Source of the DNA: Selaginella tamariscina
Taxonomy: Eukaryota > Streptophyta > Lycopodiopsida > Selaginellales > Selaginellaceae
DNA length: 64,000 bases
Reading direction: 5' to 3'
Assembly: GCA_003024785.1 (NCBI GenBank)
Contig: PUQB01000557.1
Location: 1-64,000 of the forward strand
Shown: piece after piece, positions 22,374-54,422 of the stretch
Position numbering within the stretch: position 1 is the first letter of the stretch
How the letters are laid out: each line of letters opens with the position of its first letter
Translations under genes and position numbers: made by a program
The notes under the pieces: model-generated
Database searches by the model: none
The model's input: the letters and a program-made list of their open reading frames with translations, nothing else
Told to the model about the DNA's origin: nothing

Positions 22374-22377
22374 GTGT

Positions 22378-22428
<51 letters not shown>

Positions 22429-22790
22429 ATAGGATGTGGCGTGTGTGTGCGAGAAATAGATAAATAAATAAAATTATACAGATACTAATATGTATGTATA
22501 TATATGTATAGTATATATATGTGTATGTATATCGTGTGTATGCATGTGTGAGCGAAACAAATAAAATCATACAGATAAACAAACACCACACACACACACA
22601 CACATGTGTGTGTGTGTGTGATGTATGTATATATGTATAGGAGTGTGCGTGTGTGTGCGAGAGATAGATAAATAAATTTTATTATTAAAATACACACACA
22701 TATAAATGTATATGTGAATAAAAAATAAATAAATAAACTCAGGAGTGTGTGTGTGAGAGAAAGAGAGAGAGATCTCACATGTGTGTGAGA
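21843..22790. repeat. CA/TG and TA microsatellite block, copy B
   Basis: Alternating (CA)n, (TG)n and (TA)n tracts in repeated units, joined by a motif AAATAAATTAAATTATACAGA. The longest clean tract is TG/GT at about 22,377-22,426. It corresponds to 40,235-41,420 of copy C. ORFs made of His/Thr or Cys/Val runs are repeat translations. Confidence 0.92.
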
Positions 22791-22816: not shown

Positions 22817-23529
22817 TCTTGTCGGAATGCACGTTCCAAGAGGCTGAGGTTGAGGCTTGTCTCCAGCCTCCTCCTCCACGTCAAGCTAGGTGTAGCACTC
22901 ACGGCCAAGCAAGGCACATCCATGTCCTTGTTCAACTGTGAGCGTGGATCTTGTTTGACAGGTTCATGTTACTTAGTTCCTAAGGGTTCATTGAGGGGTT
23001 CTAGAGTCGGCATTTAGGAGCCACGTTTGTGGCACTTGGTGCAACTCTTGAATCTAAGGGCTATGGCATGATAGCCACATCGGGGAAGACAGTGTCACAT
23101 GGAGATGTGACACTGGGCTAAATGTCACATGGTACAACGCCTGAGGCACGCCTTTGGGGTTGTGTCATGGGTTTGTCGCCAAGGGGTTGGATACTCTAGC
23201 CAATAAGCATGCTTGTGCTTGCACTAGGGTGCTAAGCCTTGGGCATCTGCTCAAGGGAGGTTAGGTCTCGTAACTAGGTGTGCTTTTGGCAACTTGGCTA
23301 GGGGAGTGTTCTCCTTTGGAATCCAGAGGTTGAACAACCTAAGCTCATTAGCAGAAGCCCTTTCATGAGGCACTTGCAAGGTCATGTGCTTAGGGTTATC
23401 CCAAACCTAGCCTTAGGGAGTTTGCTTAGCAGGACACTCGTGTTCACCTACGGCACACACTCGTGTCCTCATTAAGTACTAGCTCTAGTCTAGGGTATAA
23501 CTTGGCCACTCAAACCCTTAGGGTAGTCG
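22817..23529 (-). repeat. R-family fragment, right of copy B
   Basis: Reverse complement of about 25,690-26,400. It begins TCTTGTCGGAATGC, exactly where the 1-512 fragment stops (GGGAGGTC | TTGTCGG in the contiguous copy). It ends at ...TAGTCG where the 5' LTR of gypsy 2 begins. No coding sequence is supported. Confidence 0.85.
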
Positions 23530-28039: not shown

Positions 28040-28860
28040 TCTTCCTGTTCACAGGTCCTACGACTGTCCTATTGATCTTGCGAAGGAAAGACTCCACCGT
28101 TCGGACCGATTTATGCACTGTCACCCACAGAGTTGGAGGTTCTTCGTCAGTACATCGAGGACAACTTGGCATCTGCTTCATTCGTCACCTCCCCTGCAGC
28201 ACTATTTTCTTTGTCAAGAAGAAGGATGGAGTTTACGTTTGGTTGTGGACTACAGGGTTTGAATCAAGTCACCACTCGGAATCGGTACCGTTGCCATTGA
28301 TCCCGGAACTTCTCGATCGGCTGCGAGGAGCAAAGGTGTTCACGAAGATCACTTACGAGGGGCCTACAACCTTGTACGGATTCGTCCAGGCGATGAGTGG
28401 AAACTGCCTTTCGTACAAGGTATGGACACTTCGAGTACACGGTGATGCCCTTCGGCCTTACCAATGCCCCAGCCGTGTTCCAACACATGGTGAACGACAT
28501 CTTTCGTGACTTCTTGGACCAGTTTGTGGTGATCTACCTCGACGACATTTTGAAAGGACCAGCGGCACATGACAAGCATGTACGATTAGTTCTACAGCGG
28601 CTTCGCGAGCATGGCCTGTATGCGAAGTTGGAGAAGTGTTTTTTCGATAGGGATTCTGTGGAGTTCTTGGGCTACATCGTCTCTCCTGCTGGCATTTCCA
28701 TGGACATGCACAAGGTGAAGACCATCGTGGAGTGGGAGAGGCCCAAGTCTGTACGAGATGTACAATGTTTCCTTGGCTTTGCAAACTTCTACAGGCGGTT
28801 CATACAGGACTTCTCCAAGCGTGTACTTCCACTCACGGAACTCACCAAGCGCACAGGGTT
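28040..28860 (+). pseudogene. pol: Gypsy 2 reverse transcriptase
   Basis: The fingers region is scattered over frames (YDCPIDL, KKDG, VVDYR-like, PLPLIPELLDRLRGAKVFTK). From 28,397 one long frame holds [33 protein letters not shown], the intact catalytic box YLDDIL, and [14 protein letters not shown], running into the connection domain. An LHK..L.W of the thumb ([20 protein letters not shown]) is present. Frame breaks near 28,390 and 28,870 make it non-functional as read. Confidence 0.9.
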
Positions 28861-29430
28861 TTCTCTTGGTCCGACAAGGCGGAACATGCATTCACAACAC
28901 TCAAGGACGCCTTCACGACAGCTCCGATTTTAGCACATCCTGATCCTTCTCGTCCTTTCTTCGTTGAAGCAGATGCCTCGGATTTTGCAGTAGGATCCGT
29001 CCTATCACAAGTTGGAGAAGACAAGTTGCTTCATCCTGTAGCTTTTCACTCTCGTAAGTTCCTTTCGGCGGAGATCAATTACGAGATTCATGACAAGGAA
29101 CTCAAGGCCATTGTGGATTCGTTCGAGGAGTGGCGGCATTTCCTGAAGGTGCTGCGCATCCTGTACAAGTTCTTACGGATCACAAGAACCTGGAGTATTT
29201 TCAAACGGCTCGAGTTCTCAGTCGGACAGGCTAGGTGGGCAGAGTTCCTATCACATTTTGATTTCGTCATCGTCTACAGGCCGGTTTTCGGAATGGCAAG
29301 GCGGCATTGTCTAGGCGCTCTTACCTTGCACCGATCCCGGGCGATCCTGCATAACTGTAAAAAAGTGTTGTTGGGTCTGATCGACTTCCGGCTTGTAGCA
29401 CTACAGGTTCATCAGGCTCCAGCAATTTAA
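28860..29430 (+). pseudogene. pol: Gypsy 2 RNase H
   Basis: [57 protein letters not shown] and DKELKAIVDSFEEWRHFL are in one frame and in the standard order. The DAS catalytic residue region and the E of the Y-x-x-x-x-K-E-L helix are present. The following tether (NLEYFQTAR-like) is in another frame. Confidence 0.9.
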
Positions 29431-33117: not shown

Positions 33118-33121
33118 CTTA

Positions 33122-33148
33122 ATGCACGTTGTAACTAAAGTGGGCATG
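33122..33148 (+). repeat. Left terminal inverted repeat of copy C
   Basis: Begins ATGCACGTTGTAACTAAAGT. Preceded by the target duplication CTTA. Mismatches to the right TIR are at positions 6 and 19. Confidence 0.93.
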
Positions 33149-33408
33149 ATACGTGAAAATGGGAATATAAAATAAATTACTAATTAATACTTAAGTTTTA
33201 ATTATTAATTAATCATTTAATTAATATGTAATTAAGCCTTAAATATTAATTAATTAATTAATTAATCCTTCAATAACCTTACTTAGTAAGGAATATTCCT
33301 AAAATATCTTAGAATATTCATATTATTCTAAAAATAGTTTACAATAATGAAAAATACTATCAAACATAATTACAAATGAAATCATTTTCTTATCAACATG
33401 TTAATTTT

Positions 33409-34600
33409 TTATAAATACTTTCTTTCTATCATACAAAGAAATCTTTTCATTTTGTCTAAATCATCACTCTCCGGATTAATCAAATCATTTTGGTCAATAT
33501 CTTGATGTTGTTGCCACCACTTAACACTCTCACGAATGCAATTGGGAGTTGCCATCCTTGTTAATACATAAGATGTGATAAGAGAAGGTCTGCATAAAGG
33601 CTCATCTAAAAACTGACGTTCCTTAAGAATAATATTATAAAGCGCCCGGTTGCTATCCTTCATTTTATAAAATTCAATATCACGAGAAAGAAAAGCTTCA
33701 GGAAATGTATGATACGGTGGATACTGCTCACAAAAATTTTCGAGATTCTTCTTTCTGAGGCACGTATCCAAGTAGTTCACTAGCTCATCCATGATATCGG
33801 TATCAGAATATGGATCGAAAGTGATTGGATGAATACAAGCAATGTTTTGGTTGAGCATAGCCTTCTGAGGAGAGTCGTCTACTACTAAGATATGTGCATT
33901 CTTCGTTATCCTTAAGCGACTGATCTCCCCATGAGTCCCAATTATTCTTTCATTCTTGAAGAAGTATGGCTTGCTTTCCTTTCTTATATTGTGAAATTCG
34001 AGAGGTTTATGACACATTCGCTGGTCAAAAATCCAATCTTTACGAATCACCTCTTCTGCAACACTACAATGTTTCTTAAGTAAACTCAACAGCGGTGTTA
34101 AGTTATGAATCTGCATGCATGACCAAATCCCCACAAGCGCACCCATCTCCTTAAGCTTTTGAAAGAGACGATCCAACCCTGGACGAAAAATAATATCATA
34201 TCGAAATTTACCATGACAAGGAATGAAATCTCCTTGTTTGATTTCTTTTTTCTATCCTCGGGCCTTTGTCGATGAAGCAGAACACCATTGACATCCAACA
34301 ACACAATATGGCCATGAGTAACGAGATAGCGTTGCCTCTTGAATACTTTGCAAATCACTTGTTTGCTCCCTTTCACATTTATCCGTTGCCACTATTTCGT
34401 TGCCTATCCCTTCATCATTTAATTGTACATCATCCTTACAAGATTCAGATATTGCATGCGCTGAAGAAATTGATTTCGGAACTGAAGCCAATAAAAATGA
34501 TGATGCAAAAACTGAAGTGGCCCCCATGGTAACGATGTTTTGAGCTGCATTATTATCCATTTCCTGCATGAACTCTGTCATTCTGACATGTGGCACAAGA
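33409..34600 (-). CDS. HAD-superfamily FCP1/SCP-like phosphatase, element cargo
   Basis: Reading from 34,600 down, an N-terminal stretch without recognised domain is followed near 34,290 by LLDVNGVL, the HAD motif I. A frame change near 34,250 in an A-run separates it from YDIIFRPGLDRLFQKL, LVGIWSC, then LVVDDSPQKAMLNQN (motif IV) and DELVNYLD. This is the order of the FCP1/NIF-type phosphatases that dephosphorylate serine residues. Motif I has D-V-N where active members have D-x-D, so the acid/base Asp is replaced and activity is doubtful. The C-terminal 120 residues are specific to this element. A small intron or an assembly error could explain the frame change. The role in the element is unknown. 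Confidence 0.65.
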
Positions 34601-34852
34601 AATTGTCGCCAAACCCCTCTCTTACCTCATGGCAATGCTGAAAATCCATGTTCTCAATTTTTCATTACATCTGCAAAATGATAATTAGCTGACCTTAAAA
34701 TTATCAAGGTATATTATTTACCTTGTTAATGTGTGACCCATGTTTGAACTAAAAGCTTCATTAATCCTTGAGAATTTATTTTCTGTACAAATATAAAAGA
34801 AATATACAAAAATGCCTTATGTTACACTCATTTACAACTATTCATCACTCTA

Positions 34853-37800
34853 TCAATTCATTATCAATTCTTCTTCGCTATTACCTTCTGAATGAGGCGA
34901 AGAAGGTCTAAGCCGCTTGTGAGATGGTTCAAGATCTTCTGCATCTTCTATTGATGTTTCCATGGGTCCTGGAGTGTGCGAATGTTCTGTACTCCTCGAG
35001 ATAACTTCCGGTCTAATATCTGATTGATGTTCGTTCTCAGACTCCGAGATTGAACCAGATTCACCTTCAGAGCTATCGCACTTATCTGGAGGGAACTTTC
35101 TCAAATACGCCTTTATGGATTCGTTGGGGTACTCAGTTGAGACCCAATCTATCCACTTGTTCAGGTCCTCAACCATGGTCTTATCCTTCAACGGCAAACA
35201 CACATGTATGCCGAAGGTAACACTCCTTCAAGACGGACCCCCTAGTGCAGTAGTCAAAAACCCACGCATCACTGTGAGGACCCCTGATCAAGTTGACGAT
35301 GCTCCGTGCCGCTTGACTTGTAATGTTTGGATAACGTACATTGCCGAATACGTCACTCATACCTATCGGTGTATCGGATGGAGGTTCAGGGCCGTTGGAG
35401 TGCAAACAGATGCCTGGCCAGTCATTTGGAAGCTTGAAATTGTTTGGCGCATTCCTAACAACCAAGTGAACAACGTATCAATGCACTTGGGATTAGCATC
35501 GTTCATATAAAATCCTGTCCAACGATGTCTATTCTTCTTGGCGAAGGCGAAGGCAAAAGTATCGGTGACATGAGCAAGAATCAAGAAATAAATACCTGAA
35601 AAAGTAGGTATCAGTGAAGAGCGCAAGCATGAATTCAATAATAAATACCTTCTATGTATATGCTTGCACGGCTAAGTTTCTCCACCAGATCCTCTAGTGC
35701 CCTATCTGTCGAAAGATTTTTTGACACCCGCCGATCCATCACGAACAATTGAAACGGTTTCCTACAAGCAGTGATGTTACCCCATAAAGTCTCCGAATCT
35801 AACAACAAACATCTGTAGGGCTTGTCGTGATTCGTAGCATCCTCCTTTATAAGGTTCAATTCGGTTCTCCGCTGCTGAAGGACTGCCATAAGAGAAGGCG
35901 TCATCCCAATGTTCTCCTTTTTGGCGTTGGCGTGCAATAGATTCTTGCCTAGATCTTCCGATTGGTTCACCCATTCGACAAGCATATCATCGTTCGTCAC
36001 ATGCAAATATTTGCTACCTCTTCATATGTTGAAGTCGAGGTCCAACCCAGTTTGTGGCAGTGTATTCCCAACCACTCCTTGAAATGCCTGACCGTCTTCA
36101 ACTCCATTGCCTTGAGATGAAAAGGAGAGGTTGGGCTGCTGTTATTAATTTGTAGTTTGCCATCGATCACCAAATCAGCCAAGACTTCCATCTCCTCCAT
36201 CGTTGTTCCATTTAAAGGCTTCAACCATGTGAGCTTGAAATCGTTGTCTACATCCTTTGTAGATTGAACAGACTTAGCCTTCGGCGTCTTACTGGGTTTC
36301 TTTGCAGACTTTTCTGAGGGCTCCCCTTCACTTGTCTGCTTCTTCTTCAGTGTTCCTTTTGAAAAGGATTCCATAATCCCCAACCATTTGGCAAAGATCC
36401 TATCTTCGGGGCAAGAAATCAACATCATCAGAAAGATGTTTCCTTCCCGCCCACCTGGGCAAAATCAACTGCTGCAATTTCTTCAACTCTCTGAGGAAAA
36501 AAAGATTAATATACCGGCGAGATAAATCCCGCCCAAACAATTTGCTTACCCGGTATTCCGCAGATTGTGTATTCCCTGCGGTAGCTCTTTGTGGTCGCTG
36601 AAGAGATTCCCACACGGCTCGCGTGTGTTTAAACTTCTCCCATATTTTGCTGTTGTAGTGGTTGGTGTCGGCAGCGTCCCATTCCGCCGATAACTTATGG
36701 TACTGCTCGATTGTGAGATTCGGCTTAGCTAAAAACGCCGATCTTTTTGTCAGCTTCTCACGGGTATGCTCGGAAAGTTTTGTTGCCATCGTTCCTTTGT
36801 TGTGTTCATCGAGAAGTCGTTGGGCTGCCGTTATTGTGTGCTGGCCACTAATGATGTAGTACTTGATAGATCTTTTATTCTCCGTCTGAATCTTCATGAG
36901 TTGTTCTGGTGTTGTGATCCAGACTTTGTCAGCACCCTTCCTTCTTTCATAGTATGGACACAAAACAGCATTATGTGGAACGGTATAAGAATTGTCGTCC
37001 TTCATCTTCTCCATGAGCTCAGCTACACGTTCCTGGTTGAGTGGCCTGTAATTGAAGTTTGGGTTGACGCTGCAATATTTAACCCTACAAGGATAAATCT
37101 TATCATCCAACATCATTTCCTTGTGACTTATTGCAGCATGAGATGCCACAGGTGCAGCTGACAAAACGATTGATGATTTTCTTTTGCGATCCGAATCAAC
37201 ATGTGTGATCCCCGACTGCAGCTGTTCTAGTGTTCTCGGCACACTCTCCAGCTCCCGAAGCTTCCTAAGCAAATTGAACGTGATCTGTAGAGAACCTGAG
37301 ACCGAGCCACCTCTCAATCTCCCTTATGATGTCGCTGTGTTCTTCTTCAATGTGAAGAGGGAAGATTGCTCCACTTGCTGATTTTCTGTATTGTGAAGCA
37401 ATATCTCCTGACAATACACCTACTCGATGAGTCTGAAGATCTTCGAAGTAGACATCCAGATGGATCCCCTCCATAGATGGGCTTTCGTTGAGTTGAAGAA
37501 GAACTCCAAGGTCAACATCATTAGTGAACACGTGAACGTCATTATCCACAAGTCGACAAAACCACCCGAGATTAATGTTGTAACTGACGACCTCTGGATC
37601 CGAGAACGTGACATTGGATGGAACAAGGCATATCTGTCGAGCATCGTCCAATCTGGGTTCGCAGCCTGCTTTCGGGTGCTTGACTAGCGAATCTACTTTC
37701 CATTGTTTTGCTTGTCCATGAGATGTGACAGAGGTTAATTTGACAGCAGCATGGTTGCTCCAATGCGCTTCCCATTTATCTTAAAATATGGCCAAGTTGA

Positions 37801-37987
37801 TTCCAGAATCCCCCTGCCCATCTCTTCTCCTGCTCTTGTCTTTAATGTCACCTCAATTCCACATCTGAATACAAAAATGATTAGTTCAAGTATCCGAGTA
37901 TAACAGATTTTATTTTAATTCTTACCCAGAATTTGACGACGACTCCATACTAATGACTCGATCTCCTTGTTTGATCAAATCGTCCTT
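34853..37987 (-). CDS. ParB-like protein with possible methyltransferase-like C-terminus, element cargo
   Basis: Exons on the minus strand start at or before 37,987 (TTTTGCAG acceptor), with introns at 37,865-37,925 and 35,596-35,648. The N-terminus (GDRVISMESS) is followed by a region of unknown function. The block NPNFNYRPLNQERVAELMEK then leads to KYYIISGQHTITAAQRLL (about 36,808-36,865), the ParB/sulfiredoxin-type nuclease and DNA-binding signature G-x-H-x-x-x-A. A Lys-rich linker and a C-terminal region with DAWVFDYCTRGSVLKECYL recall the last motif of N4/N6 DNA methylases, but no clear DPPY box is seen, so that part is a weak suggestion. Frame changes near 37,760, 37,270, 36,405, 36,000, 35,450 and 35,205 mean it is broken or contains uncorrected indels. 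The acidic tail ends at 34,853. Confidence 0.6.
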
Positions 37988-38282
37988 CTGCAAAATAATA
38001 CACTATAAATAAAATTATATAAAAACGCACACACACTTGTATAAACCCGAATATACAAAAATAATACACAGAGAGAAGTAGACGTAATTAACTGTCCGAA
38101 GCTCACATTTGTGTTAGTGCAAAAGAAAGATAACATTTCGTTTTAGAACCACCACAAATGTGAGCTCTGGACAGTTTTACATAGATTCCTAGCTTTTACT
38201 CGAAATATTATGATAAGATGATAAAAGTAAATAAAATGAGATATGCAACTTATATATACTAATACACATATATATTCACATG
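37988..38282. other. Upstream region of the ParB-like gene
   Basis: No ORF. It holds an inverted pair: GCTCACATTTGTG at 38,101 and CACAAATGTGAGC at 38,152, a hairpin with about a 38-base loop. Its right part is shared with copy B (20,950-21,045), ending at the array. It may contain the promoter and first exon of the minus-strand gene; neither can be assigned. Confidence 0.5.
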
Positions 38283-39590
38283 GAAATTAATCTCGCCACC
38301 CCTTCAATGCCTCCTGAAAGAGTGGGCGGGATTAATCTCGCCACCTTTCTGGAGGCCTTGAACGGGAGTGCGGAATTAATCTTGCCACCCTTCTCGGTCT
38401 CAGAGAGAACTGGGCAGGATTTATTTCTCACACCCCTTCAGTGACTCCAGAAAGGCGGGATTAATCTCGCCCACCATGTAAGGATGGTTAAATGAATTTC
38501 CCACCCTTCCCAATTCTCTCCATTGGTATGTTGAAAACCTTCTACGTCTCAGACAGAAACGTTTGGGATTGGTCCGACTCACCAATGGAGAAAAAAGGAA
38601 GGGTGGCGGGATTCATTCCTCCAACAGGCATTGAAGACTCGGCGGGATTAATCCCGCCGCCCAGGGCCTTCACTCGGTCCCTATGCGGCGGGATTAATCC
38701 CGCCGGACGCCAATTCCCTGCGCGGAATCGGGCGGGATTAATCCCGCCGCCTAGGCACTTCAGGCAGGCCAATGGCGGCGGGATAATCCCGCCCGATTCG
38801 AGCAGGGAATTGGCGTCGGCGGGATTAATCCCGCCTCCCAGGCCCTTCACTCGGGCCTTAGTCGGCGGGATTAATCCCGCCGAACGCCAATGCCCTGTGC
38901 GAAATCTTGCGGGATTAATCCCGCCGCCTAGGCCCTTCAGGCAGGCCAATGGCGGCGGGATAAATCCCGCCCGATTCCGCGCAGGGCATGCGTACGCGGC
39001 GGGATTAATCCCGCCCACCATGTAAGGGATGGTGAAATTAATCCCACCACCCTTCTCAGTTCCCTCCATTGGTATTTTGTAAACCTTCTCCGTCTCAGAC
39101 AGAGTTAGTCGGGATTGATTCAACATACCAATGGGGTAATGAAGGTTCGGGATTAATCGCCACCGGGTAATGAAGGTTCGGAGGCTAATCCCGCCGCCCT
39201 CTCGTAAATCATGCGCTCACACATATATATTGGCTGCGGCATTTTTGAACAGGGATGGGTGGGGGCGGGATTAATCCCGCCGCCCAGTTCACGCGGAATG
39301 AAGGCGGGATTAATCCCGCCGCCCTCCGCGAAGGGCATGAGCGTGGGGCCGGATTAATCCCGCCGTTCATGTCCTGCGTGAATTCCCTGGGCGGCGGGAT
39401 TAATCCCGCCGCTCTACGACAAACCGAAGAGCGGCGGGATTAATCCCGCCGCCCATGGCCTGCGTGAGGGGCCTCGGCGGCGGGATTAATCCCGCCGCCC
39501 ATGGCCTGTGAGCCGCGGCGCGGGATTAATCCCGCCGCCCATGGCCTGCGTGAGGGCCTCGGCGGCGGGATTAATCCCGCCGCCCATCCC
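38283..39590. repeat. Palindrome array C1
   Basis: Some twenty or more units of GGCGGGATTAATCCCGCC, with left units degenerate and right units near-perfect. Spacers are families of their own (AATTCCCTGCGCGGAATC, GGCCTGCGTGAGGGCCTC, ggcccttcaggcaggcc), several of which are also self-complementary. GC-rich against AT-rich surroundings. It lies just upstream of the minus-strand cargo genes. ORFs across it are artefacts of the repeat. Confidence 0.94.
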
Positions 39591-39890
39591 CCATAAATTG
39601 TCAAAATTGATTTTAAAACCATGGTTTCACTATTCATGAATAGTAAAACCAAAATTTAGGGTTAAATATATATTATTAATATATATAATTAATAAATTAA
39701 TACTATATATTCATAATATTAAAGAATATAAGATTTAATTTATATATTTTATATAATTGAAAATCATCAAAAATCATTATATATATTGAGTTAAATTTTT
39801 TTTGATCTAAGCCATCATGGTTTTTTTAATGGTCTAGGTCACGGTCTAAGTCAATTTTGTTAATCTATGCCATCCCCTGTAAATGCCCTG
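39591..39890. other. AT-rich break between palindrome arrays
   Basis: About 300 bp of AT-rich sequence without ORFs separates two array blocks. It contains the near-palindrome TGGTTTCACTATTCATGAAT and GGTCTAGGTCACGGTCTAAG direct repeats. Possibly a small insertion into the array; its ends were not resolved. Confidence 0.4.
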
Positions 39891-39896
39891 CGCGGA

Positions 39897-40232
39897 ATCC
39901 GGCGGATTAATCCCGCCCATTAGAACCTTTACACAGGCCATTGCCGATGAGATAAATCCCGCCGCATTCCGCGCAGGGCATGGATGAGCGGCGGGATTAA
40001 TCCCGCCGCCGAGGCCCCTCACGCAGGCCATGGGCGGCGGGATTAATCCCGCCGCTCTTCGGTTTGTCGTTAGAGCAGCGGGATTAATCCCGCCGCCCAT
40101 AGCCTGCGTGAAGGGCCTCGGCGGCGGGATTAATCCCGCCGCTCACCCATGGCCCCAACCATATAGCGCGGGATTAATCCCGCTGCCGAGGCTATAAACC
40201 TATAGCGGCGGGATTAATCCCGCCGCTCGAGG
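39897..40232. repeat. Palindrome array C2
   Basis: Around seven units of the same 18-bp palindrome with spacers such as CATTCCGCGCAGGGCATGG and CCATAGCCTGCGTGAAGGGC, ending next to the microsatellite block. Confidence 0.92.
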
Positions 40233-40234
40233 GG

Positions 40235-40971
40235 CTTAGCGAGATAAAAACACACACATATATATATGTGTGTGTGTATATATATTATATATAATATAAT
40301 ATATATAATAATAATATTGTATGTATGTATGTATAGGAGTGTACGTGTGTGTGCAAGAGATAGATAAATAAAATTATACAGTACTGGTACACCTAATATA
40401 TGTGTGTACATAGGTTATATATTGTGTATATGTATCGTGTGTATGCGTGTGAGCGAAACAAATAAAATCATACAGATAAACAAACACACACCACACATAT
40501 ATATACACAGGAGTGTGCGTGTGTGTGCGTGCGAAATAAAACTAATAAATAAATAAAAATTATACAGATAAACACACACATATATATGTGTGTACATAGA
40601 TATATAATCTATAGAGAAAGAGAGAGAGTCTGTGAATATATAAGCATATATATAAACTAGTGTTGTATGTATGTATATATGTATAGGTATATATATGTGT
40701 GTATATGTATATTGTGTATGCGTGTGTGAGCGAAACAAATAAAATCATACAGATAAACAAACACACACACACACACATAACATACACAGATGTGTGCGTG
40801 TGTGTGCGAGAGATAAAACTAATAAATAAATAAAATTATACAGAAAACAACACATATATATATATGTGTATATAGATATATAACCCATATGAATATATAA
40901 GCATATATATAAACTAGTGTTGTATACTATTTGTTAATATGCATTGATTATATATATATATATATATTATG

Positions 40972-41008
<37 letters not shown>

Positions 41009-41070
41009 GCAGTGCGCGTGTGTGTGGGAGAGATAGATCAATAAAAAAAAATTTACAGATACTGGTACAC

Positions 41071-41142
<72 letters not shown>

Positions 41143-41385
41143 GCAAGATCAAAAAAAAAATTTACAGATACTGGTACACATAATATATGTATGTATATAT
41201 GTATATAGGTATATATATATATATGTGTATATGTATATCGTGTGTATGCGTGTGTGAGCGAAACAAATAAATCATACAGATAAACAAACACACACCCACA
41301 CACACATATACATACACAGGAGTGTGCGTGTGTGTGCGAGAGATAAAACTAATAAATAAAATTATACGCACACTCCTATACATAT

Positions 41386-41416
<31 letters not shown>

Positions 41417-41440
41417 GATCTCACCTGTGTGCACAGCCGC
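40235..41440. repeat. CA/TG and TA microsatellite block, copy C
   Basis: Repeated units combining (TG)n, (TA)n and the joiner AAATAAAATCATACAGATAAAC with GAGTGTGCGTGTGTGTGCGAG. It matches 21,843-22,790 in copy B and ends with a (CCG)n stretch (41,435-41,465). No gene. Confidence 0.92.
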
Positions 41441-41489
41441 CGCCGCCGATTTCACAGCCGCCGCCTCTTGAAACCCTAAGAATATACCT

Positions 41490-42290
41490 AAACCCTAAAG
41501 GAATTAAATATATATATCAACCCTAATAGAATATTCCTTCTGAGAATATACTTAAACCCTAAAAAGAATAAAATATAGATTCGCCCTAAACGAATATTCT
41601 TTCATTATATTATTAGCGCGTGCGTGTGTGGGTGTATCACATACACCTCAAAAATATAAATCATGCAGGGATTTAACATGTGTGTGTCCATGAGAGTGTT
41701 AAAGTTTCATGTGTACATACACATTGCATATATTAATACACATAATATATACATACACACGTGTATACACACAGACATACACACATATTACATGGGTTTA
41801 GGGTTTAGGGTTTAGGGTTTAGGGTTTTGGATTTAGGATGGATCATGCATGGTGTGTATGTATGAGAGAAGAGAGAGTGTTGAAAAATTATTTTTGTACA
41901 CATTGCATATATTAGTACACATATATACTTACACATATTATACACAGATATACATACATAGTATATGAGAGAAGAGAGACAGTACATATTATGGATCATG
42001 CATGGTGTGTATTATACACACAGACATACATACATATTAGTACATAATATTAGAGAGACCGAGTACATATTATAGATCATGCATGGTGTGTATGTTTGAG
42101 AGAAGAGAGACAGTACATATTAACATGGATCATGCATGGTGTGTATGTATGAGAGAAGACAGAAAGTACACATATATACATACAGAGTACACATATATAC
42201 ATGCACACGTGTATACACACAGACATACATACATATTACATGAGTAAATTCATTGTGTTACATATTAGGGTTTAGGGTTTAGGGTTTGCT
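41490..42290. repeat. Minisatellite and interstitial TTTAGGG repeats, copy C
   Basis: At 41,791-41,826 five GGGTTTA units stand in tandem, and three more lie at 42,266-42,287. Around them the minisatellite GGATCATGCATGGTGTGTAT repeats several times, as in copy A. Plant telomeres use this heptamer, but here it is embedded in the transposon in both copies. Confidence 0.88.
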
Positions 42291-42529
42291 CCCAACAAGC
42301 TTAATATAAATATTACACATGTAAATTCAATGTGTTACATACAGTCACACAGATTGAGTACATATATCATACATGCGTTGAACATGATGTTTTCAATAAA
42401 GAAGCAACTATTTCTTCAGTTTGGTTTAGGGTTGTGCATGTGTGTGCATATGTGTTTTTGTAAGTTCTTGTAATGCGTGTGTAAATTTATGATTGTGTTT
42501 ATATATGTGTGCAAAACAAACATCGAATA

Positions 42530-43330
42530 ATTAAGAAAATAAAATTAATAAACACACTAGGAACATATTTTAAATTATACATAATAATATATGATTTTAT
42601 CTAATATATAGCCATATATAGTTTTAATAATATATATTAATTTAATATTGATAAAAAGGTTTAACATTGAAATATTCTTGAAATAATAAGAAATTAATTG
42701 AGAAAATCCCATTAATATATACAAATGTAAATTAAGTACTCAAATAATTAACTAAATTAATTATCATAATCATGTTTAATATTGGAATATTCTTAATAAG
42801 AAAATAATAAAGAATATCCCATTAATATAAAGAAGATTAATTACTCAAGTAATTAAGGAAATGATATTAATATATATATTATTAAAACTATATATGACTA
42901 TATTATAAAATGATGTATTATTATGTATAATTTAAAATATGTTCATAGTGTGTATTAATTTAATATTGATAATAAGGTTTAACACATGAATATTCTTGAA
43001 ATAATAACAAATTAATTGAGAAAATCCCATTAATATATACAAATGTAGAATAATTACTGCAATAAAAAACAAGACTAATTTAATTATGATAATCAGGTTT
43101 AATATTAGAATATTCTTCAAATATTAATAAAATATTAAAGAATATCCCATTGATACTAGGAAATGAAAACTAAATACTCGAGTAATTAAGAAAATAATAA
43201 TAATAAACAGACTATGAATATATTTTAAATGATACATAATAATATATCAATTTATTTATTGTATAAGTTATATATATATATATATAATATATAAATATAC
43301 TTGAATACTAAGAATGTAGAATATAGTCTA
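42530..43330. repeat. AT-rich tandem repeat, copy C
   Basis: Three imperfect units of about 330 bp, homologous to 2,033-2,800. Within the second unit, about 42,866-42,958 is inverted relative to copy A. No gene is seen from 42,290 to 43,860. Confidence 0.8.
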
Positions 43331-43865
43331 AAATTTCGTAATATTAAACAGCTTGAATCACTTGAATAACATTAAATGCAATTTTAAAATACTCATTGGA
43401 ACTGGAGAGTATATATGTCAGTGTGAGTGTTTTGTGTCAACTCATCTTAAATTTTTTTCTGTTCTTTTTAAAAAATTTGAATTTCTGACATATGTATTGT
43501 CGGTCTGACATGTAAATTTGAAAATGCATTTAATTTCCCACTCAAATTCAGATCTGGTTCTTTCTCCGGCAAGGGTTTCTTCATTTCTGTATTTTTCACT
43601 CTTTAGATCTTCTTTTTTCTTCATAGTGATCATCTCAGGAGCGAGATTAAATTGGGTGCTATTCTTTATAGGAAAGCACGGCGCCTTCAGTGCTGTTTAC
43701 AAGTAAGTATTATAAACAAATTTAAAAATACTTATTAAGATTCACTCTCTTACATTCTCTCTTAAAATTACAATTTAGGGGTTTAGAAATGCATTAGGAT
43801 TATAATATATTCCGTTAGGGATTTATCACGTTTAAATATCCTTTTAACTTAATATTCTAGGTTAA

Positions 43866-44784
43866 CCGGGGCGGCGGGATTAATCCGGCCATTTCTTTTT
43901 CGCCTCTTTGAAGAAGTGGCGGGATTAATCCCGCCACCATCTCCCGGGCAATGCTTCTCCGCCACTGAAAAAGAGTGGCGGGATTAATCCCGTCGATAAC
44001 CTTCTCAACTGATGAAGAGTTACCAGAATTTATTAGAAAGAGTTGTCGGCGGGATTAATCCCGCCAACCATTTTAGGAGGCAGGGAAGGGGTGGCGGGAT
44101 TAATCTCGCCACCACTTCCTGTTTTAAAGATTTGGGGACAGGATTTATCCCGAGATCTCTTTGAAATCATAGTTTTGGAGAGAGTTATGTGCGGGTTTAA
44201 TCCCGCCACCCATTCCCCGTCGTAAGAATTGTGGGCGGGATTAATCCCGCCTTGGACTCCCTCCGACAAGGAAGAGCCGGCGGGATTAATCCCGCCGCCT
44301 CTTCCTCCGACGAGGAAGGGAGTCCGGCGGGATTAATCCCGCCGACTCTCTCCGGCGAGGATGAGTCGGCGGGATTAATCCCGCCGGACTCCCTTCCTCG
44401 TCGGAGAGAGTCGGCGGGATTAATCCCGCCGGACCCCCCGAGGAGGAAGAGGCGGCGGGATTAATCCCGCCGGCTCTTCCTTGTCGGAGGGAGTCCAAGG
44501 CGGGATTAATCCCGCCGACTCTCTCCGAAGGGGTTGAGTCGGCGGCGGGATTAATCCCGCCGGACTCCCTTCCTCGTCGGAGAGAGTCGGCGGGATTAAT
44601 CCCGCCGGACTCCCCCCGAGGAGGAAGAGGCGGCGGGATTAATCCCGCCGGCTCTTCCTTGTCGGAGGGAGTCCAAGGCGGGATTAATCCCGCCGACTCT
44701 CTCCGAAGGGGTTGAGTCGGCGGCGGGATTAATCCCGCCGACCGTTCCTCGTCGGAGGGATTCGGGCGGGATTAATCCCGCCCA
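43866..44784. repeat. Palindrome array C3, upstream of the transposase gene
   Basis: The right part (44,225-44,784) holds 13 copies of the palindrome, most perfect, with spacers CTCTCCGACGAGGA and TCCTCGTCGGAGAGAG. A 176-bp higher-order unit is duplicated (starts near 44,386 and 44,562). The left part has older, degenerate units. The array ends about 150 bp before the transposase start codon. Confidence 0.95.
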
Positions 44785-44936
44785 TCAGTTGTATTAATCA
44801 AACATGAGATATTATCTCTAAACATAATTATGTATTATTGCATATGCATATTATTAAGTAACCGTAATTCAGATTTCTTAAAAATATTGCATAAACAGAT
44901 ATCATAAATAATACAATTATTTATGTGCAGGACAAT

Positions 44937-47900
44937 ATGTTTAATACTGGAGATAAAGTATGTCTTCTTCGGAACAACGAGATAGTTGGCACTGGAACTG
45001 TGGAAGTTCGAGATAATAATGCATCATGTCACAATATTTCCCAAGGATCTTGTGTGTACGTATGGGTGAACACCATTTTCAAGCATGTTGAGGTTCTGGG
45101 AATGGAATTTGAGGAGGGTTCTCCTGTATTGTGGAATTTGGATGAAGTCAAGGCTGACACAAAATATGCAGAGTCACAAACAAATAGTAGCACGAGTTTA
45201 CCAGATGATGGCTTGCCTGCTGTGATGGATGAGGTGATTCTCTTTCTTCGTGAGATTGAAGTCGGAAGAGGCATCATCACAGCTATAAATCCAATGGAAG
45301 CAGTGTCAGAAGAGAAACTAGGGTCCGACTTCGTGGGTGTAGTTGTGACAGAGGTTTCACCTAATGGCACATTGTATCCTGGATCCCTCGTGAGGTGGCG
45401 AACATCTGAATTAAGACGGCAAGATGGTTCAACATATTCTGGGTTGGATTTCAATAATAACAACCCGGAAGAACAACTCATATTTGAAGAGGTTCCTTGC
45501 ATTGGTCCTATTGTAAGAAAAAGGCGATTCATGGGTTGTAGATCTTCCCCTGCAAGTTTCAGCAAGAGGGTAAAGATGGATCCTACATCTTCCGAAAGTG
45601 TTACGAGCATTTCCACGATTGACTGTTGCAAGAAGAAGTGTTGTCAGATGGCAGACCGGAATGAAATTACCCAATGTAGACATGTCTTTCGTATGCTCAC
45701 CCAAAAGCAAAGGCATGAGTTTGTATATGCTGCACTAACTGGGTGTATTGATGGAATGGCCTCGGACACAGGTTATCAGAGTACATCCATGGTATTTAAT
45801 AAGGTGGCCATCTGCTTCAAAGCTTGGTACAGTATATACGGGATCCCAAAGACCACGTTCTACCGTCGGAGGGATGAGTGGCTAGATGGAGCGCGAACCT
45901 CAGTTCATGGGAACACTGGCTTGGTCAAAACCCGCTCTCACATCATGGCAGCCATAGAGATACTCAAGGCTTTTGTGGAAGCAAATGCAGACAGGATGCC
46001 TCACAAATGCCGAACCACAAATGCAGGGGTCAGGGAAAATCTCAAGGTTTTACCTTCAATCTACACTCAATTGAAACTGTGTGAACATGTGAACAAGTGC
46101 CTCAGTTTGATGGGGCTCCAAGCAATCTGCACTGGTACCTTCAACAACATATGGAATACTCATTTTAAGGATGTGGAGATTGCAAAACACTCTAGCTTTT
46201 CTAAGTGTGACACTTGTACATCATTGAAGGCTGCAGAGGCTTGTGCAAAAACCTTGGTGGAGATCACTACCATTCAAAGGAAGATGGAGGCCCACATGAT
46301 TGCACAACAAACTTGTCGGTCTCAGTACTATGCACACCGCATGCTTTCTGTGTCACGCCCATCAGAGTACCTGTGCTTGATCCATGACAAGATGGATCAT
46401 TCAAAGACCAGCATTCCAAAGCTCTTTGCAACACCAAAGTGCCTTGGAAATGTCATGAAACTTCCGATTTCTTTAACAGGTGTGCTAACACATGGACACG
46501 GTTGTGAGTCATATGGACACTTTTCACTTCCACATTGGTCTAGCGACTCCAATTTCACTATTGGGTCGTTAGCCATGTGTTTCAGAAACCTTGAAGCCCA
46601 CTCACAGACAATCCTATCAGTGATCTCAAAGTGAAGAAACAACACCTTCAACCTTTACATAATGCTCTCATGAACACGTCTGCACTTGAGGCTACTTGGG
46701 AATATGAGAGGCATTGTCAGCAACCTGCACAAAAAACAGATGGCCCTGTTGAGAGTTCAGGTTCAGTGGAGGGATCTAGCTCAAATAGTGTACATGTGTC
46801 CTCAACATCAAATAAGCTTCCTCGTCATTTGCTTTTACAGATGGATAATTGTGCAGGCGAGAACAAAAATAGGTAAATCATTTTACTTAAGGGTTTCTCA
46901 AGCTCATACTTACTTTTATTTTCTAGATATGTGCTAGCATACTTGTCAATGCTTGTTGCCAAAGGTGTGTTTGAAACAATCACGCTCAGTTTCCTTATGG
47001 TTGGTCACACTCATGAAGATATTGATGCGTTCTTCAGCAAGGTCTCCAACTCTACAAAAAGGACAAGTGCACTTACCTTACCGCATATGATGAATCTTTT
47101 TGAAAATTGCATCTCCAAAAAAAGTTGTGCTTTGCTTGTGACTGAGGTGCCAGAAGGGAGTGATTCTTTAGTTGGTCACCTTGTGCCGCTACAATTCTTT
47201 TTCTCCATACGAGATGGTATACCTATTATGCAGTACAAGTTACGGCCATCAGAGCAGGAGTGGTTACCGAAAGAGGGCTTAATGCTCTTCAAAAGTGGAG
47301 AGGATGGAAAGCCACTTCTCCCAGAAGGACAACCAGACCCTATTCCATTGAGTGCCCAGCTCAAGGAACAAGAGGTTATTATTGATGGCATCAAAAAATA
47401 TGTGGCATGGGTTCAAAAATCGATGCCAAAGAATTCTGATAAGGCAACTGGTTACTCAGAACTATATAAGCATGTGGTCAACTATTGGGAGACTGTTGTT
47501 CGAGAGTTGGAAGGGCCTACTGTCACAAGTACAGAATTTGCAACACCCTTTCTGGCCTAAAACAAGGTGGCGAGAGGAGATTGAAATGACATCACTGAGC
47601 ACAGACGACATAGAAGCCAGTAGTGATGTGGAAGTGCAAACCCCACACTTTGTTGGACAAAGGAACCAAAAACCTAAAGCATACTTTGATTGCTGCAAGG
47701 ATCTTCAAAAACTAATGATGGTTCTCATTACTCCAGATGCGTCATATAATCAGCCTATTTGGATGGGTCAAATTATCGACACACCTGAAGTAATCACAAA
47801 AAATAGTATTGTTAAGGTTGCATGGTTCAAACCACAAAAAAGGCGACACGAGAAGGAGAGCGAAAGATATAATGGATGCCTAGAGAAAACATGGTCTCCC

Positions 47901-48023
47901 AATCAAAAAGACCCAGCATGTTTTATAAATGTTAAATCCATTCGATATGGGTGGATGTCAAGAAGCGTTGATAAAGTCACGATTAACAAAACTGCAAGGG
48001 AATGTATGTTTTCTGAAGCTTAA
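44937..48023 (+). CDS. Probable transposase of the 27-bp-TIR element (DUF7869-like, RNase H fold)
   Basis: The ATG at 44,937 follows a possible splice acceptor TTTATGTGCAG, so an upstream exon cannot be excluded. Domains in order: an N-terminal region (GDKVCLLRNNEIVGTG), a helix-turn-helix-like block (AICFKAWYSIYGIPKTTFYR), a Cys pair (FSKCDTC), and the first acidic motif CLIHDKMDHSKTSIP (about 46,376-46,420). Next come QMDNCAGENKNR (46,838-46,872), a 54-bp intron (46,873-46,926), and VGHTHEDIDAFFS (47,000-47,036). The D...D...E/D arrangement with MDN-x-x-x-E-N-K-N and GHTHEDID is what I associate with DUF7869-type proteins. Frame changes near 46,605 and 47,540 interrupt roughly 1,000 residues; the second is one extra T absent from copy A. 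Confidence 0.75.
46873..46926 (+). other. 54-bp spliceosomal intron in the transposase gene
   Basis: AATAG|GTAAATC ... TTTTCTAG|ATATG. Removing it joins NKNR to YVLAYLSML in frame. It is conserved in copy A at about 11,690-11,743. Confidence 0.85.
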
Positions 48024-48501
48024 AGCAATTACAAAATTATAAAATATCATATATTTAATATTCATAATTATTATAAACTCTTTAATAATAGTACCAAATT
48101 GTATACTTAACTATATAAATTTAAAAAATGATATGGAAGATTGACTATATTATTATAGGATTTTATATATATTATTACTACTACAAATTTTTAATTAATA
48201 ATGTTATATTTAAATATTAATATTTTAATAACAACATCAATATTTATATAATGTACCTCTTATGCTCTTCCTTAATTGTTATATTAGGCAATATATTATA
48301 TAATTTAATACATTCTACTTTTATAATGTTATTAATTTTTGTTCAATGAATGCTATAATTTATTAAAGGGTAGAATACAAAATAGAATATTCTAAAGAAT
48401 ATTCTCTTTTCAAACATATATTCTAAAGAATATTCCTTTAATATTAGAAAATGCTAATTAAATAGCTAAAATTGCTAATTATTAGGAAATGGGACTATAG
48501 C
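48024..48501. other. AT-rich 3' flank of the transposase gene, copy C
   Basis: No gene. Homologous to 12,881-13,362 in copy A. Contains the AGAATATTC/GAATATTCT inverted repeats just before the right TIR. Confidence 0.65.
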
Positions 48502-48528
48502 CATGCCCATTTTAGTTACAACTTGCAT
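48502..48528 (-). repeat. Right terminal inverted repeat of copy C
   Basis: Reads ...TTTTAGTTACAACTTGCAT and is followed by the target duplication CTTA. Confidence 0.93.
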
Positions 48529-48532
48529 CTTA

Positions 48533-50121: not shown

Positions 50122-53100
50122 ATGGCCAAATGCTCTCTATGGTCGGGAGCAGCCGCTGCAGCGAAGAACCAGGAAAGGCGCAGCGAGGATGCGTACTTCA
50201 TCGACAGCGACTGGGTTGGGGTTGCCGATGGCGTGGGTTCCTGGTACACACAAGAACGCATCGATGCAGGCGACTTTGCAAGGGAGCTGATGACCAAGTG
50301 CAAGAAAATTCTGGCTCGCAAGCCACATGTCAAGGACGAAGACAATGGGTTGCTCAGGTGATGGCAAAGGCTACGCGGCGAACGAAGTCCATTGGTTCGT
50401 CGACAGTGCTACTTGCCGGAGGCTTGGCGACGGCAAGAACGTCCTCCACATTGCAAACATGGCGACTCTGGCTGTTTGGTCATTCGGAATGGCAAGCTGC
50501 TTGCCAAATCCACTTTCCAGACGGCTGGCATCAAATTTGCCTTACCAGGTTTGCAACTCGCAGAGACCCCAGGATGAATATTGTGCCATGGACCCTGTCA
50601 TGCTCGGTGAGGTGCTTAAGGTGCCGGTTCAGTCGGAGACATTGTCATCTGTGCAACCGACGGGCTCTTCGATAGCAGGACGCTGGAGCAGGTGGTTGTA
50701 GTGTCCAGTGGCCTTGCTCGAGATGGAGCTTCTCCACAAGCTCTGGCCAGGGTCCTCATGATGCTGGGGCGTAATGGATGGAAGGAAGATGACATAACGG
50801 TGGTGGTGTCACTCGTTGTGGATGACTCGACTGTTTCTATTTCGGACCACAAGTCGTGGGCCGACAAAGTGTTGACCTTCGCTCCAGGCATCGCAGCCAA
50901 ATTGAGAGCTAATGCCTACTTTTCTTTCGATAGGCCGGAGGACCACGTTTTATCGGTCGTGCTTAGGCTGCAGAAGATGGGGAAAGAGAGATACTTTAGT
51001 GGGCTAGATGACGATACCTTGAAGAGTAAGCTCGAGGAGATGCTGCACGAGACTTCCTTCGATAATTTGCGGAAGAGGCAGAAGATGGAAGAGCCAGACT
51101 TGAGCTACCTGTTGAAGTAAAGCAGGTGTTGGACGACTATGCCAGTGGGAAACTGAGTCTTGTCAAGTACAAGGGTGGTGCGCAAGTTGTAAGCTGTGAA
51201 GGCAAGCCATGTTTGCTCCTCAGTCATCTGGGCGATGAGACTGAGGAGAACTTGGGCGTCCTCCAAATTTTAGAAGAAAAGCTGCAAGATTCAATGGTCA
51301 TGCTTGCGGGTGGACATGGTTCTGGAAAGACAAGGCTGCTTTACAAATACTTGTGTAGCAAGGGAGAAGAGGTGGCCTGTACTTGACTGCTCGCAAATCA
51401 GAAGAGCACTGGGGATCACTGACTTTTGAGTACTTGGTGACGGAGGTTCTTTCGGGCTCGCTCAGACCGATTAGGCCAGATGGCCAACGAAATCGTTCAT
51501 ATTCATTATCGCTCCCTTCCTTTACGGTTGGAGACCAAATGAAAGCTGCTGCTGGCTGCCAGGATGAGGATTACAAGTACTGCAGACGCAGGCTGAGCGG
51601 CAGGCAGTGGCTGGTGCTACAGGCGGCATGCAGGGCGTTAGTCTACTCAGATGGTACACCAATTGGGGAAGCAGGAGACGTGTTCAAAATCTTCTTTGCC
51701 AAGATTTGCAAGCAGGAGGATAAGCTCCGTGACCACTGGAGGCTGAAGGAGGGTTACTTCAGTTGTTAGTAAGATGCCCGTTTGTGTGATAGACGACATT
51801 GAGCAATGCCGGATGGCTTTACACGGGTGCTTCAGTGAGAGGGATGACTTTGTGGCTTGGGGTTGGCAAGAGCACTGGGAGCTTTTTTCCAGAAACTTGG
51901 TGGCAGAGTTGTATTCTCTGGGGCGGCTGGCGACCGTGAATTGCTTGAGAAGAAGAACAAGAACATGATCGAGCAAGTGTTTGCCAAGGATGCTGGCACA
52001 CAGCAGACGAGGCAATCGAGTACAGTGAGCAGGTGCTGCTGCGAAAGATGAGCGAGGACGAAGCAGACTTTATGAGGACTTTGTGTTCCAGAGGTTCAAA
52101 GGCAGGTTCACGCCTTTCGTCTCTATGTTGGAGGTGATGCTGTCGAGGAAGTCAACCTGCAAGATGCAGCAGAGTACATTGAGAAAGGTTATACCACTAC
52201 GGAAGATGTGTCCTCTGAGGTGACTAGTTTCTGCAAGACCATTGCGTCCTTGTCAAGGGCTTGCCGGCTACCATCGGCTGGGCTTGCTTCGAGCATTCCG
52301 TATTGGAGGAGCCCTAGTGTCTTCGAAGATTGGTAACAGCTGAAATCCGGGAACTGGTTGAGTCGGGCCTAGCGAACTGGGTGCTGGTGAGAGGGAAGCG
52401 TGTTTGGCTATCTGCGACGAATACCTGGTTCGCAAGGCTTACGAGAACATGCACGGAGTCACATCTATCGAATGGATGCGACCGGTACAACGGGTTGAGG
52501 CCACCAAGTCGGCCAAAAACTATGACTTGGTTCCCTTCTGCTTCCTGAGAATGTGGAAGGAGTACAAGGGGGTATTAGAAGACATGCCATCTTCAAGGAT
52601 CTCCTGGAGGACGACAAGTGCCCGATGCAGCTGAAAATCCTGTCCAAGTCTACGAGTGCTTTCTTGGAGAAACAATGAACAATGTGTGCTACCAATGAGC
52701 GACGGGCTGAAACTTGAAGACTTCTTCTGTGATGAGCAGCCCAGGTGCAAATTTCTACAGTGGATGGCCAAGGATTTCTCCACTTCAAGTGCAGCAGGAG
52801 GATCGTGTTTGATGGCACTGGCATGAGTGTTGGCTACTTCCATCATCTTCACTTTCCTAAGAAGGACATTATGGAGGAGGGAGCTGTTGTCAAGGGCAGA
52901 GGTCGTCTTGTGAAGATGGAACCCGGAGTGGATTGGGTTCCAGATGTTACCTCTGCTTGTGCTGGTTCATCCGTTCCAGGTAGTGCAGGATTGCCCAAGT
53001 GGTCCTTCAAAGAGGTTGCCCCTGGAAAGCTCAAGGTCACTCTTGTGCTGGACAATGAGAATATCAAACTGGCCTTCACTCAAGCAGAGGTCGAAGTAGT

Positions 53101-53146
53101 GAGAGATACATGTGACCATTTTTGTTGTCGCCGACGCGGATTTTGA
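50122..53146 (+). pseudogene. PP2C-type phosphatase joined to a P-loop NTPase-like region (frame-broken)
   Basis: The ATG at 50,122 starts with [21 protein letters not shown], the metal-binding DGVGSW block of PPTC7/PP2C-type phosphatases. GSSTVLL, ANMGDSGCLVIRNGKL-like, GDIVICATDGLFDSRTLEQV and GWKEDDITVVV follow over alternating frames, giving a complete PP2C core. It continues without a stop-and-start gap into a helical region. Walker A AGGHGSGKTRLLYKY lies near 51,303 and Walker B-like VCVIDDIEQC near 51,782, followed by FFQKLGGRVVFSG. The C-terminal region (KWSFKEVAPGKLKVTLVLDN) ends at 53,146. The NTPase part is reminiscent of Crinkler/RHS-type proteins; this is an inference. About ten frame changes and no introns suggest an old retrocopy or mobile-element gene. 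Confidence 0.6.
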
Positions 53147-54422
53147 TTTTGCGTGAAACATCAATAGTTATATCATTTATTATATATACCTTAACACCGA
53201 GGAATAATATATATAATATAGGGAATATTATATTAATGAAATATTGCGAAGTAGTTCAAAATATTAAAATACATATTTAATTTAAATAATACTAATTAAA
53301 TATATCTTTCTTGAATCTATAATACTGAAGTATATAATTCAAACAAAGATAGTCATTACATGCATATGTGTTAATATATATAATATGTTTTATTTATATT
53401 AATGAATATAAAAGCTGTATATTTAGTGAATTTGTATGAATGAATTGGTTGTTGCTATATAACGTGAAATATAACATATACAGATCTAACAGGCTTATAT
53501 CCAAATATACATAGTATCCTATACCTTACAATATATATACCTCACTAAAATATATCCGTACTGTAGGATATATCATAAATATGTTCAATAATTAAGATTT
53601 TTAATAATATTCTTATCAAATAATATATATTGGATGTATATGCATATGTGTGTGTATATGTGACACGAGCTTCTCTAAGCGCTCTCTCTCTCTCACTCAC
53701 ACCCACACGTGTGTGTAGGTACGTACGTACGTATATATGTACATTTGTATGTGTGTATCAAAGACAAGAGTTTCTTTAAGCTTTCTCTCTCTCTCTCTCT
53801 CTCTCTCACACAACACACACACATGCACGTATGTATGTATATGCATATTATGTGTGTGTTGTGCAGGCGGGGAACTTAATTCCAAATATACGGATTCAAA
53901 TGACGCAGTTGAATGCCTTCCACTGCATATTCCAAGGAATCAATTAACCGAAGTTAGTTATGTGTTTAAATTTGGAGTATAAAAGATTATGCATATGCAT
54001 AAAACAGGTAGTATTATTTTACAATAATATACACAATTTAATTTACTGGCTACTTAACATATACACACTTAATATTAATATGAACTAATTATTTTAATAT
54101 ACACACTTAATATTAAAATTAACTATAATTGATTTTGACGGGTTAGCTTGCAACTTCAACTTTCAACTTCCGAAACCCCGCCAAGTCCGCCTATTCCACT
54201 CCTAAACAAACATTGTGTGTATATATAGTATTAGCAAAAATTACTAAATATATTACATATTATAATAATAAGCTATAAAGATATATGATATATATAATAT
54301 ATATATATATTATATATAATATATATATATATAGTAATATATATAATCTTGAACCTATAATTAGTTTAACTTGCAGGTACCATATTATTTTTATTTTCTT
54401 GATTATTCCCATAATCATTATT
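53147..54422 (+). repeat. Left arm of a large inverted repeat (continues from the gene's 3' end)
   Basis: Together with the 3' end of the PP2C-NTPase gene (from about 52,740), this sequence recurs inverted at 62,449-64,000. Shared landmarks are the ACGAGCTTCTCTAAGCGCTCTC stretch (53,665), GCCTTCCACTGCATATTCCA (53,914) and ACTTGCAGGTACCATATTAT (54,370). It contains TG/TC microsatellites near 53,690-53,830 and a TA-rich block near 54,280-54,345. No gene. Confidence 0.87.

Follow-up and report, generated by a model that had tools for sequence, protein, structure and literature searches.

What is the 15.4-kb stretch at 33118–48532 of a 64,000-nucleotide window from Selaginella tamariscina (positions 1 to 64,000 of contig PUQB01000557.1, assembly GCA_003024785.1, which is the whole stretch of DNA analysed), which enzyme moves it if it is mobile, and where does it belong among known transposons? 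A preliminary description had proposed a complete DNA transposon with a DUF7869-like transposase and ParB- and HAD-like cargo, had suggested looking for further copies sharing its ends, for 4-bp duplications, and for empty sites, and had held that no named superfamily combines these features. Our analysis indicates that the stretch is very probably a class II transposon of the DDE/D type, 15.4 kb long, and that it belongs to a young family with many copies, for which a Sola-like home is likeliest.

The element proper occupies 33122–48528 (15,407 bp), the earlier range having taken in the target site duplications, which read CTTA on both sides (33118–33121 and 48529–48532, unstranded). Its 27-bp terminal inverted repeats (33122–33148, plus strand; 48502–48528, minus strand) begin ATGCA and match at 25 of 27 terminal positions and none beyond, so that sequence comparison confirms the ends and duplications as first described. 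The related claim that homology to two other copies halts exactly at these ends holds on the right, where 44229–48528 aligns to 9092–13389 of the window and the alignment stops with the element, and on the left 33120–34322 aligns to 19710–20908 beginning 2 bp outside it. The window copy is complete in structure, as had been claimed, and broken in its transposase and HAD reading frames. Rfam at gathering score and a tRNA scan of the window gave no matches.

The 300.7-Mb source genome holds at least 40 scored left ends (809 first-look candidates), at least 40 scored right ends (851 first-look candidates), at least 89 scored ParB-exon places, and at least 44 scored transposase places, all four counts being lower bounds. 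The 40 scored ends of each kind have 99–100% identity. With a 283-bp left-end query, in which the element starts at base 5, all 40 scored copies start at query base 1–5; with a 291-bp right-end query, in which the element ends at base 279, scored copies stop at query base 280–291, the alignments of copies C616 and C519 reaching the last query base, 12 bp beyond the element end.

Target site duplications were read in two batches. The first comprised the window and 10 further copies, with an additional sequence retrieved to read a nested one; both flanks were readable in seven elements, six with exact 4-bp duplications (window and C586, CTTA; C837, ATGT; C527 and C781, TTTA; C1293-inner, CCAT) and one, C1293-outer, with flanks differing by one base. 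Ten pairs were sought for the second, nine of which had both ends: four are exact (C904 and C861, ATGA; C236, CATT; C738, ATTA), C113 and C1022 show the same four bases after one additional T on the right side, C519 agrees at three of four bases, and C803 and C462 show no match. Identical 4-bp flanks were thus found in 10 of 16 elements, compared with a mean of 1.1 exact pairs and a maximum of 7 in 100,000 shuffles of flank partners. In C1293, one copy is nested in the right terminal repeat of another with CCAT on both sides, so that the duplication and the uninterrupted target, i.e., the empty site, are directly visible. The further copies, the duplications, and the empty site that the preliminary description had suggested looking for are therefore all present. 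The many small indels between copies suggest noisy assembly and would suit repeats that are a duplicated segment or an assembly product, with no transposon involved, a reading whose probability we consider negligible: all 40 scored left ends lose homology at the element boundary, the flanks of copies are mutually unrelated, and the nested insertion and the duplications refute it. Six of the 16 elements are without an exact duplication, two of them wholly without a match, and no excision was seen among the copies examined; both observations count against the transposon model.

The element is organized divergently, a transposase unit running right and a unit of the ParB-like and HAD genes running left, with an AC/AT-rich repetitive middle part (40291–42300, unstranded) that differs between copies. 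Order and strand of the parts are constant among nearby scored places (7/7, 6/6, 4/4, 2/2, 2/2, and 1/1), and each of the three genes has dN/dS values that lie mostly under 1. The DUF7869 gene (44937–48023, plus strand) adjoins the right end and consists of two exons around a 54-nt GT-AG intron (46873–46926, plus strand), which is in frame and contains one TAA; with this intron removed, the gene is colinear with its relatives P0001 and P0002. The suggested DUF7869 identity holds in both exons, the window frames matching at 3.2e-5 (just below the Pfam cut-off) and 3.5e-23, and exon 1 of another copy at 2.6e-12. The acidic motifs HDKMD, DNC...NKNR, and HTHEDID are arranged as in DDD transposases of the RNase H-like kind, and the order of strands and helices is RNase H-like in a low-confidence model of P0001 (mean pLDDT 50). 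Alignment of P0001 and P0002 against viral contigs and prokaryotic genomes found no relatives.

We infer from these features that the DUF7869 protein is the transposase of the element and catalyzes its movement. The window frame of the gene is closed at 46634 and 47560, and these broken frames, together with a catalytic role predicted from sequence, would also accord with a DUF7869 gene that is itself cargo while an unseen enzyme, in the element or elsewhere, moves the ends. This is very improbable in our view, as the gene is open in 44 of 44 scored places save for one TAA, lies at an identical distance from the right end in 7 of 7 linked places, and is accompanied by no second transposase-like domain among the ORFs put through Pfam. 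With the DUF7869 protein as transposase, a domain that has had no assigned function is linked to a specific transposon whose ends, duplications, and empty site are known. The protein would recognize the 27-bp ends, cut through an RNase H-like D-D-D site, and insert the element at AT-rich sites, which share no strict consensus, through cuts staggered by 4 bp, movement presumably being cut-and-paste. The broken window frames and the pLDDT of 50 count against this model.

The leftward unit carries the putative cargo. Its NIF/FCP1-type HAD phosphatase-like gene (33409–34581, minus strand, start at 34581) is split at 34251/34252 in the window, where the frame matches Pfam NIF at 5.8e-9, and is open over 406 codons in copy C929 (locus L039:3675-4892), where it matches at 7.9e-12 with 45.6 bits against a cut-off of 21.8, which substantiates the HAD-like label. 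The ParB-like gene (34853–37948, minus strand) has at least four exons, with splice sites predicted from sequence and the first exon starting at 37948. Its label stands as a motif pattern (NPxxxYR ... SGQHT) picked out by eye and drew no profile support: the protein had no match worth naming in Pfam, NCBIfam, PHROGs, or PDB, and no ParB match in the first three. The tail, likewise by eye, resembles at best a degenerate DNA methyltransferase, with a motif-I-like stretch reading DYCTRGS in three copies; profile searches gave no match to N4/N6 DNA methyltransferases, intact motifs I and IV were not found, and Pfam found nothing in the joined ParB-methyltransferase protein. Searches of protein databases returned nothing at E <= 0.001 for either the ParB exon or the joined protein; both nulls are weak because both queries used the C1304 exon, in which a stretch stands in another frame than in the commoner form, and the null for the exon is weakened further in that its search covered proteins 0.55–1.75 times the length of the query. 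A single-sequence structure model of the exon (pLDDT 33.5) was unusable for a fold search. That the ParB and methyltransferase labels are without profile support also counts against the overall reading of the element.

An 18-bp palindrome, GGCGGGATTAATCCCGCC, occurs 49 times in the element, in two unstranded arrays beside the two divergent genes: 29 sites at 38325–40224 on the left and 19 at 43873–44782 on the right, the latter stopping 155 bp before the transposase start, with a single further site at 36516. The likeliest role of the arrays would be to bind a protein that the element encodes, foremost the ParB-like one, and such binding could serve autoregulation or marking of the element's own DNA. 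A more elaborate possibility, which we regard as unlikely, is a ParB-parS-like system on a eukaryotic transposon: the ParB-like protein would load on the two internal arrays, coat or bridge them, and in this way control the divergent promoters, pair the element for transposition, or shield it from host silencing, the dead methyltransferase part acting as a structural or reader domain. Accessory genes of the ParB type are known from algal transposons, and here such a gene occurs together with candidate binding sites in a family that is young and present in many copies. With both in one family, the published proposal that proteins of this type bind the element encoding them and mark it can be tested directly.

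Among known superfamilies, the 4-bp duplication (exact in 10 of 16 elements, without any match in two) agrees with Sola. Sola transposases are DDD enzymes. CACTA/EnSpm elements have CACTA ends and a 3-bp duplication and were rejected, the present ends being ATGCA and the duplication 4 bp; piggyBac, which targets TTAA, was rejected as TTAA occurs in none of the 10 exact duplications, and KDZ/Zisupton, with its 8-bp duplication, as flank identity extends over 4 bp only. A likeness to CACTA/EnSpm lies in large size, in accessory genes, which large algal EnSpm elements are said to carry (PMC12477816), and in a weak TNP1/EN/SPM N-terminal match in relatives of the transposase (6.6e-4, below the cut-off), which hints at a superfamily other than Sola for that domain. 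The same match, PF26133 precomputed for four of five relatives, and a full-text literature search for DUF7869 that returned no papers would be in keeping with DUF7869 transposases that form a superfamily of their own and gained the ParB-type gene in a separate event, comparable to the accessory genes of algal EnSpm elements. We consider this conceivable though somewhat doubtful, since the 4-bp duplication, the D-D-D motif order, the giant size, and the ParB-like gene opposite the transposase fit Sola as described in the excerpted sources (PMC12477816, PMC3627910). A Sola-like home, with the transposase set beside Sola by description only, is the likeliest, and we hold it with slightly better than even confidence.

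The closest described design, which makes this home the likeliest, is Sola1-1_Ec32, a 21.5-kb Sola-1 transposon of the brown alga Ectocarpus in which a ParB-like gene lies on the opposite strand to the transposase and encodes a protein predicted by the authors to include a methyltransferase domain as well (PMC12477816). Hence, to say that these features are combined in no named superfamily was too strong, the more so as Sola2 has 4-bp AT-rich duplications. Both Sola1-1_Ec32 and the present element are giant DNA transposons with a ParB-like gene opposite the transposase; however, any methyltransferase part here is degenerate at best, the excerpted description of Sola1-1_Ec32 contains neither a HAD gene nor palindrome arrays in a pair, and copy number is far higher than the two intact Sola-1 copies given for Ectocarpus (PMC12477816). 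Sola2 elements of Dictyostelium fasciculatum and Polysphondylium pallidum resemble the present element in their AT-rich 4-bp duplications, in the short inverted repeats at their ends, and in carrying extra genes, but their extra gene is Fanzor1 and their repeats measure 12–21 bp against 27 bp here (PMC3627910). Sola1 elements are also listed for the moss Physcomitrella, in a table that gives neither structure nor sequence (PMC9033089). The design of the Selaginella element is thus close to the known brown-algal one, and some of its parts look new.

The element, a real, young, giant DNA transposon, spans 33122 to 48528, and its inverted ends are identical at 25 of 27 positions, with the match breaking off beyond them and CTTA adjoining at each end, the same values that the preliminary description had given for 27-bp ends and their flanks. 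Homology to two other copies had been said to stop exactly at these ends; this holds for the right part, which resembles 9092-13389 in an alignment ending at 48528, while the left part, resembling 19710-20908, aligns from 33120 rather than 33122. We then queried the 300.7-Mb assembly (1,391 contigs, containing the window) with the left (283 bp) and right (291 bp) ends, where a search with the 27-bp end had been proposed, and obtained at least 40 copies of each, scored as the best 40 of 809 first-look candidates and of 851 candidates, respectively. These counts are lower bounds because scoring covers the best candidates only, and the candidate numbers beyond those scored suggest a family of hundreds of copies. 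All 80 scored ends share 99-100% identity and break at the proposed ends or a few bases off, with two right alignments overrunning by up to 12 bp; since both queries included flank, the top matches are biased to CTTA-like sites.

The 4-bp duplication was examined in two batches. First, the window and 10 fetched copies (plus one fetch for a nested copy) gave seven elements with both flanks readable, with contigs C1304, C1059, C1036, C718, and C568 lacking a complete right end. Second, 10 pairs found via gene positions gave nine readable elements, the left end being missed in C1102. Flanks matched exactly over 4 bp in six of seven and four of nine elements (10/16; CTTA, CTTA, ATGT, TTTA, TTTA, CCAT, ATGA, ATGA, CATT, and ATTA), whereas shuffling the partners in 100,000 trials produced 1.1 exact matches on average and 7 at most. 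Elsewhere, the flanks differ by one base (outer copy of C1293), share the same four bases but after one extra T (C113 and C1022), agree at three of four bases (C519), or do not match (C803 and C462). Further, the empty site that had been called for was found in C1293, where insertion of one copy into another copy's right terminal repeat gives TATAGCCAT|element|CCATGCCCATTTTAG, and the repeat without insertion reads TATAGCCATGCCCATTTTAG, which shows the pre-insertion target plus a 4-bp duplication.

Family copies are nested inside family copies in two fetched stretches (L027, ~5374; L010, ~4385), one of them inverted, and the right end of the C568 copy (L024) lacks its last 13 bp and is followed by unrelated sequence. 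AC/AT-rich simple repeats lie mid-element (40415-41494) and in a copy at ~21850-22720, differing in length between copies. By eye, long plus-strand ORFs at 7374-8168 and 28651-29430 resemble Gypsy-type retrotransposon RNase H/integrase, the former inside inserted sequence at about 3756-9091, which interrupts another window copy of the transposon. Inverted arms of ~540 bp (22946-23488 and 25735-26275; 88-98% complementary) lie ~2.2 kb apart with an N stretch between, and a series of arms at 52723-54407 and 62465-64000 (82-100% complementary, 8-11 kb apart) looks as though a single element were present in two inverted copies running beyond the window end.

The transposase gene starts at 44937 on the plus strand and has two exons, both matching DUF7869, in line with the DUF7869-like label of the preliminary description, around a 54-nt, in-frame GT-AG intron (46873-46926) containing one TAA. 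The intron sequence is identical in 6 of 11 copies, namely the six where our script located it, and the protein without it is colinear with the relatives P0001 and P0002. A protein search returned five unnamed transposase relatives (29-36% identity), and all 44 places scored in the genome itself are open across 948-1,092 codons, one TAA each excepted, in a search that favours well-preserved copies and is not representative of all. Three acidic positions are supplied by HDKMD, DNC...NKNR, and GHTHEDID; in the P0001 model, the first of these motifs lies at strand 520-526, the second follows strand 658-663, and the third is at helix 702-709 behind strand 690-695, an order that may, with low confidence, be RNase H-like. 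Intron retention would truncate the protein before the third motif, a possible switch.

Arrays of the palindrome GGCGGGATTAATCCCGCC adjoin the genes, with 49 sites in the element at ≤4 mismatches, 30 on the left (including a lone site at 36516) and 19 on the right, at a median spacing of 45 bp in each array. The whole window holds 75 sites at ≤3 mismatches versus none in 20 block shuffles, and core positions carry 1.4-2.3 bits and flanks <0.8, site choice favouring the core. A gap of 155 bp separates the end of the right array from the transposase start downstream of it, and the left array opens 377 bp upstream of the ParB-like start. Site numbers differ from copy to copy, with 15 to 44 sites at ≤2 mismatches in 11 stretches, some incomplete.

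Of the proposed cargo labels, HAD-like is borne out by a Pfam NIF match and retained DVNG, GIWS, and VVDD motifs, with comparison to the PDB giving chance-level matches to unrelated proteins only; ParB-like stays a putative label read from the patterns NPxxxYR, PxxxV, and ISGQHTxxAA, profile searches with this protein being negative. This gene starts at 37948 and runs on the minus strand; of the 89 places scored in the genome for its main exon, 79 are free of stops. A later exon appears by eye similar to a degenerate motif I of amino-methyltransferases (profile searches with this part were negative), and a short stretch at the N-terminus is similar to a portion of the transposase (32% across 37 residues; E 2e-4 in a single comparison), a hint that the two proteins may share a domain.

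Nearby scored places kept the window's order and strand in every case: transposase-right end 7/7, transposase-ParB 6/6, right end-ParB 4/4, left end-transposase 2/2, left-right 2/2 (one being the window), and left-ParB 1/1, with some contigs entering more than one comparison. In comparisons with copies that have diverged further (C1293, C1059, the second C837 copy, and the two other window copies), a home-made counting method, resting on few differences and including dead copies, gave dN/dS of 0.19-0.29 for the ParB exon (two comparisons), 0.10-0.31 for exon 3 (four), 0.49-0.66 for exon 4 (three), 0.35-0.62 and 0.29-0.55 for transposase exons 1 (four) and 2 (two), and 0.27-1.05 for HAD (five). 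These ratios point clearly to purifying selection on the ParB-like gene and the transposase, and more weakly on exon 4 and HAD.

A full-text literature search for DUF7869 returned no paper, and neither the HAD gene nor the paired palindrome arrays had a counterpart in the available portions of the literature searched (the palindrome was not itself a query). The earlier view that no named superfamily has this combination overstates the case: one accessory gene is of an already known type, a ParB-like gene with a methyltransferase part being described opposite the transposase in the 21.5-kb Ectocarpus element Sola1-1_Ec32 (PMC12477816), and the element is probably Sola-like, likened by description rather than by transposase sequence. 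Sola groups are named in two sources (PMC6875170 and PMC4455052), Sola1 is among the elements listed for Physcomitrella (PMC9033089), and Sola2 duplications are described as 4-bp and AT-rich (PMC3627910). The element is long by this comparison because curated bivalve Sola1 elements average only 5,445 bp (PMC10294476).
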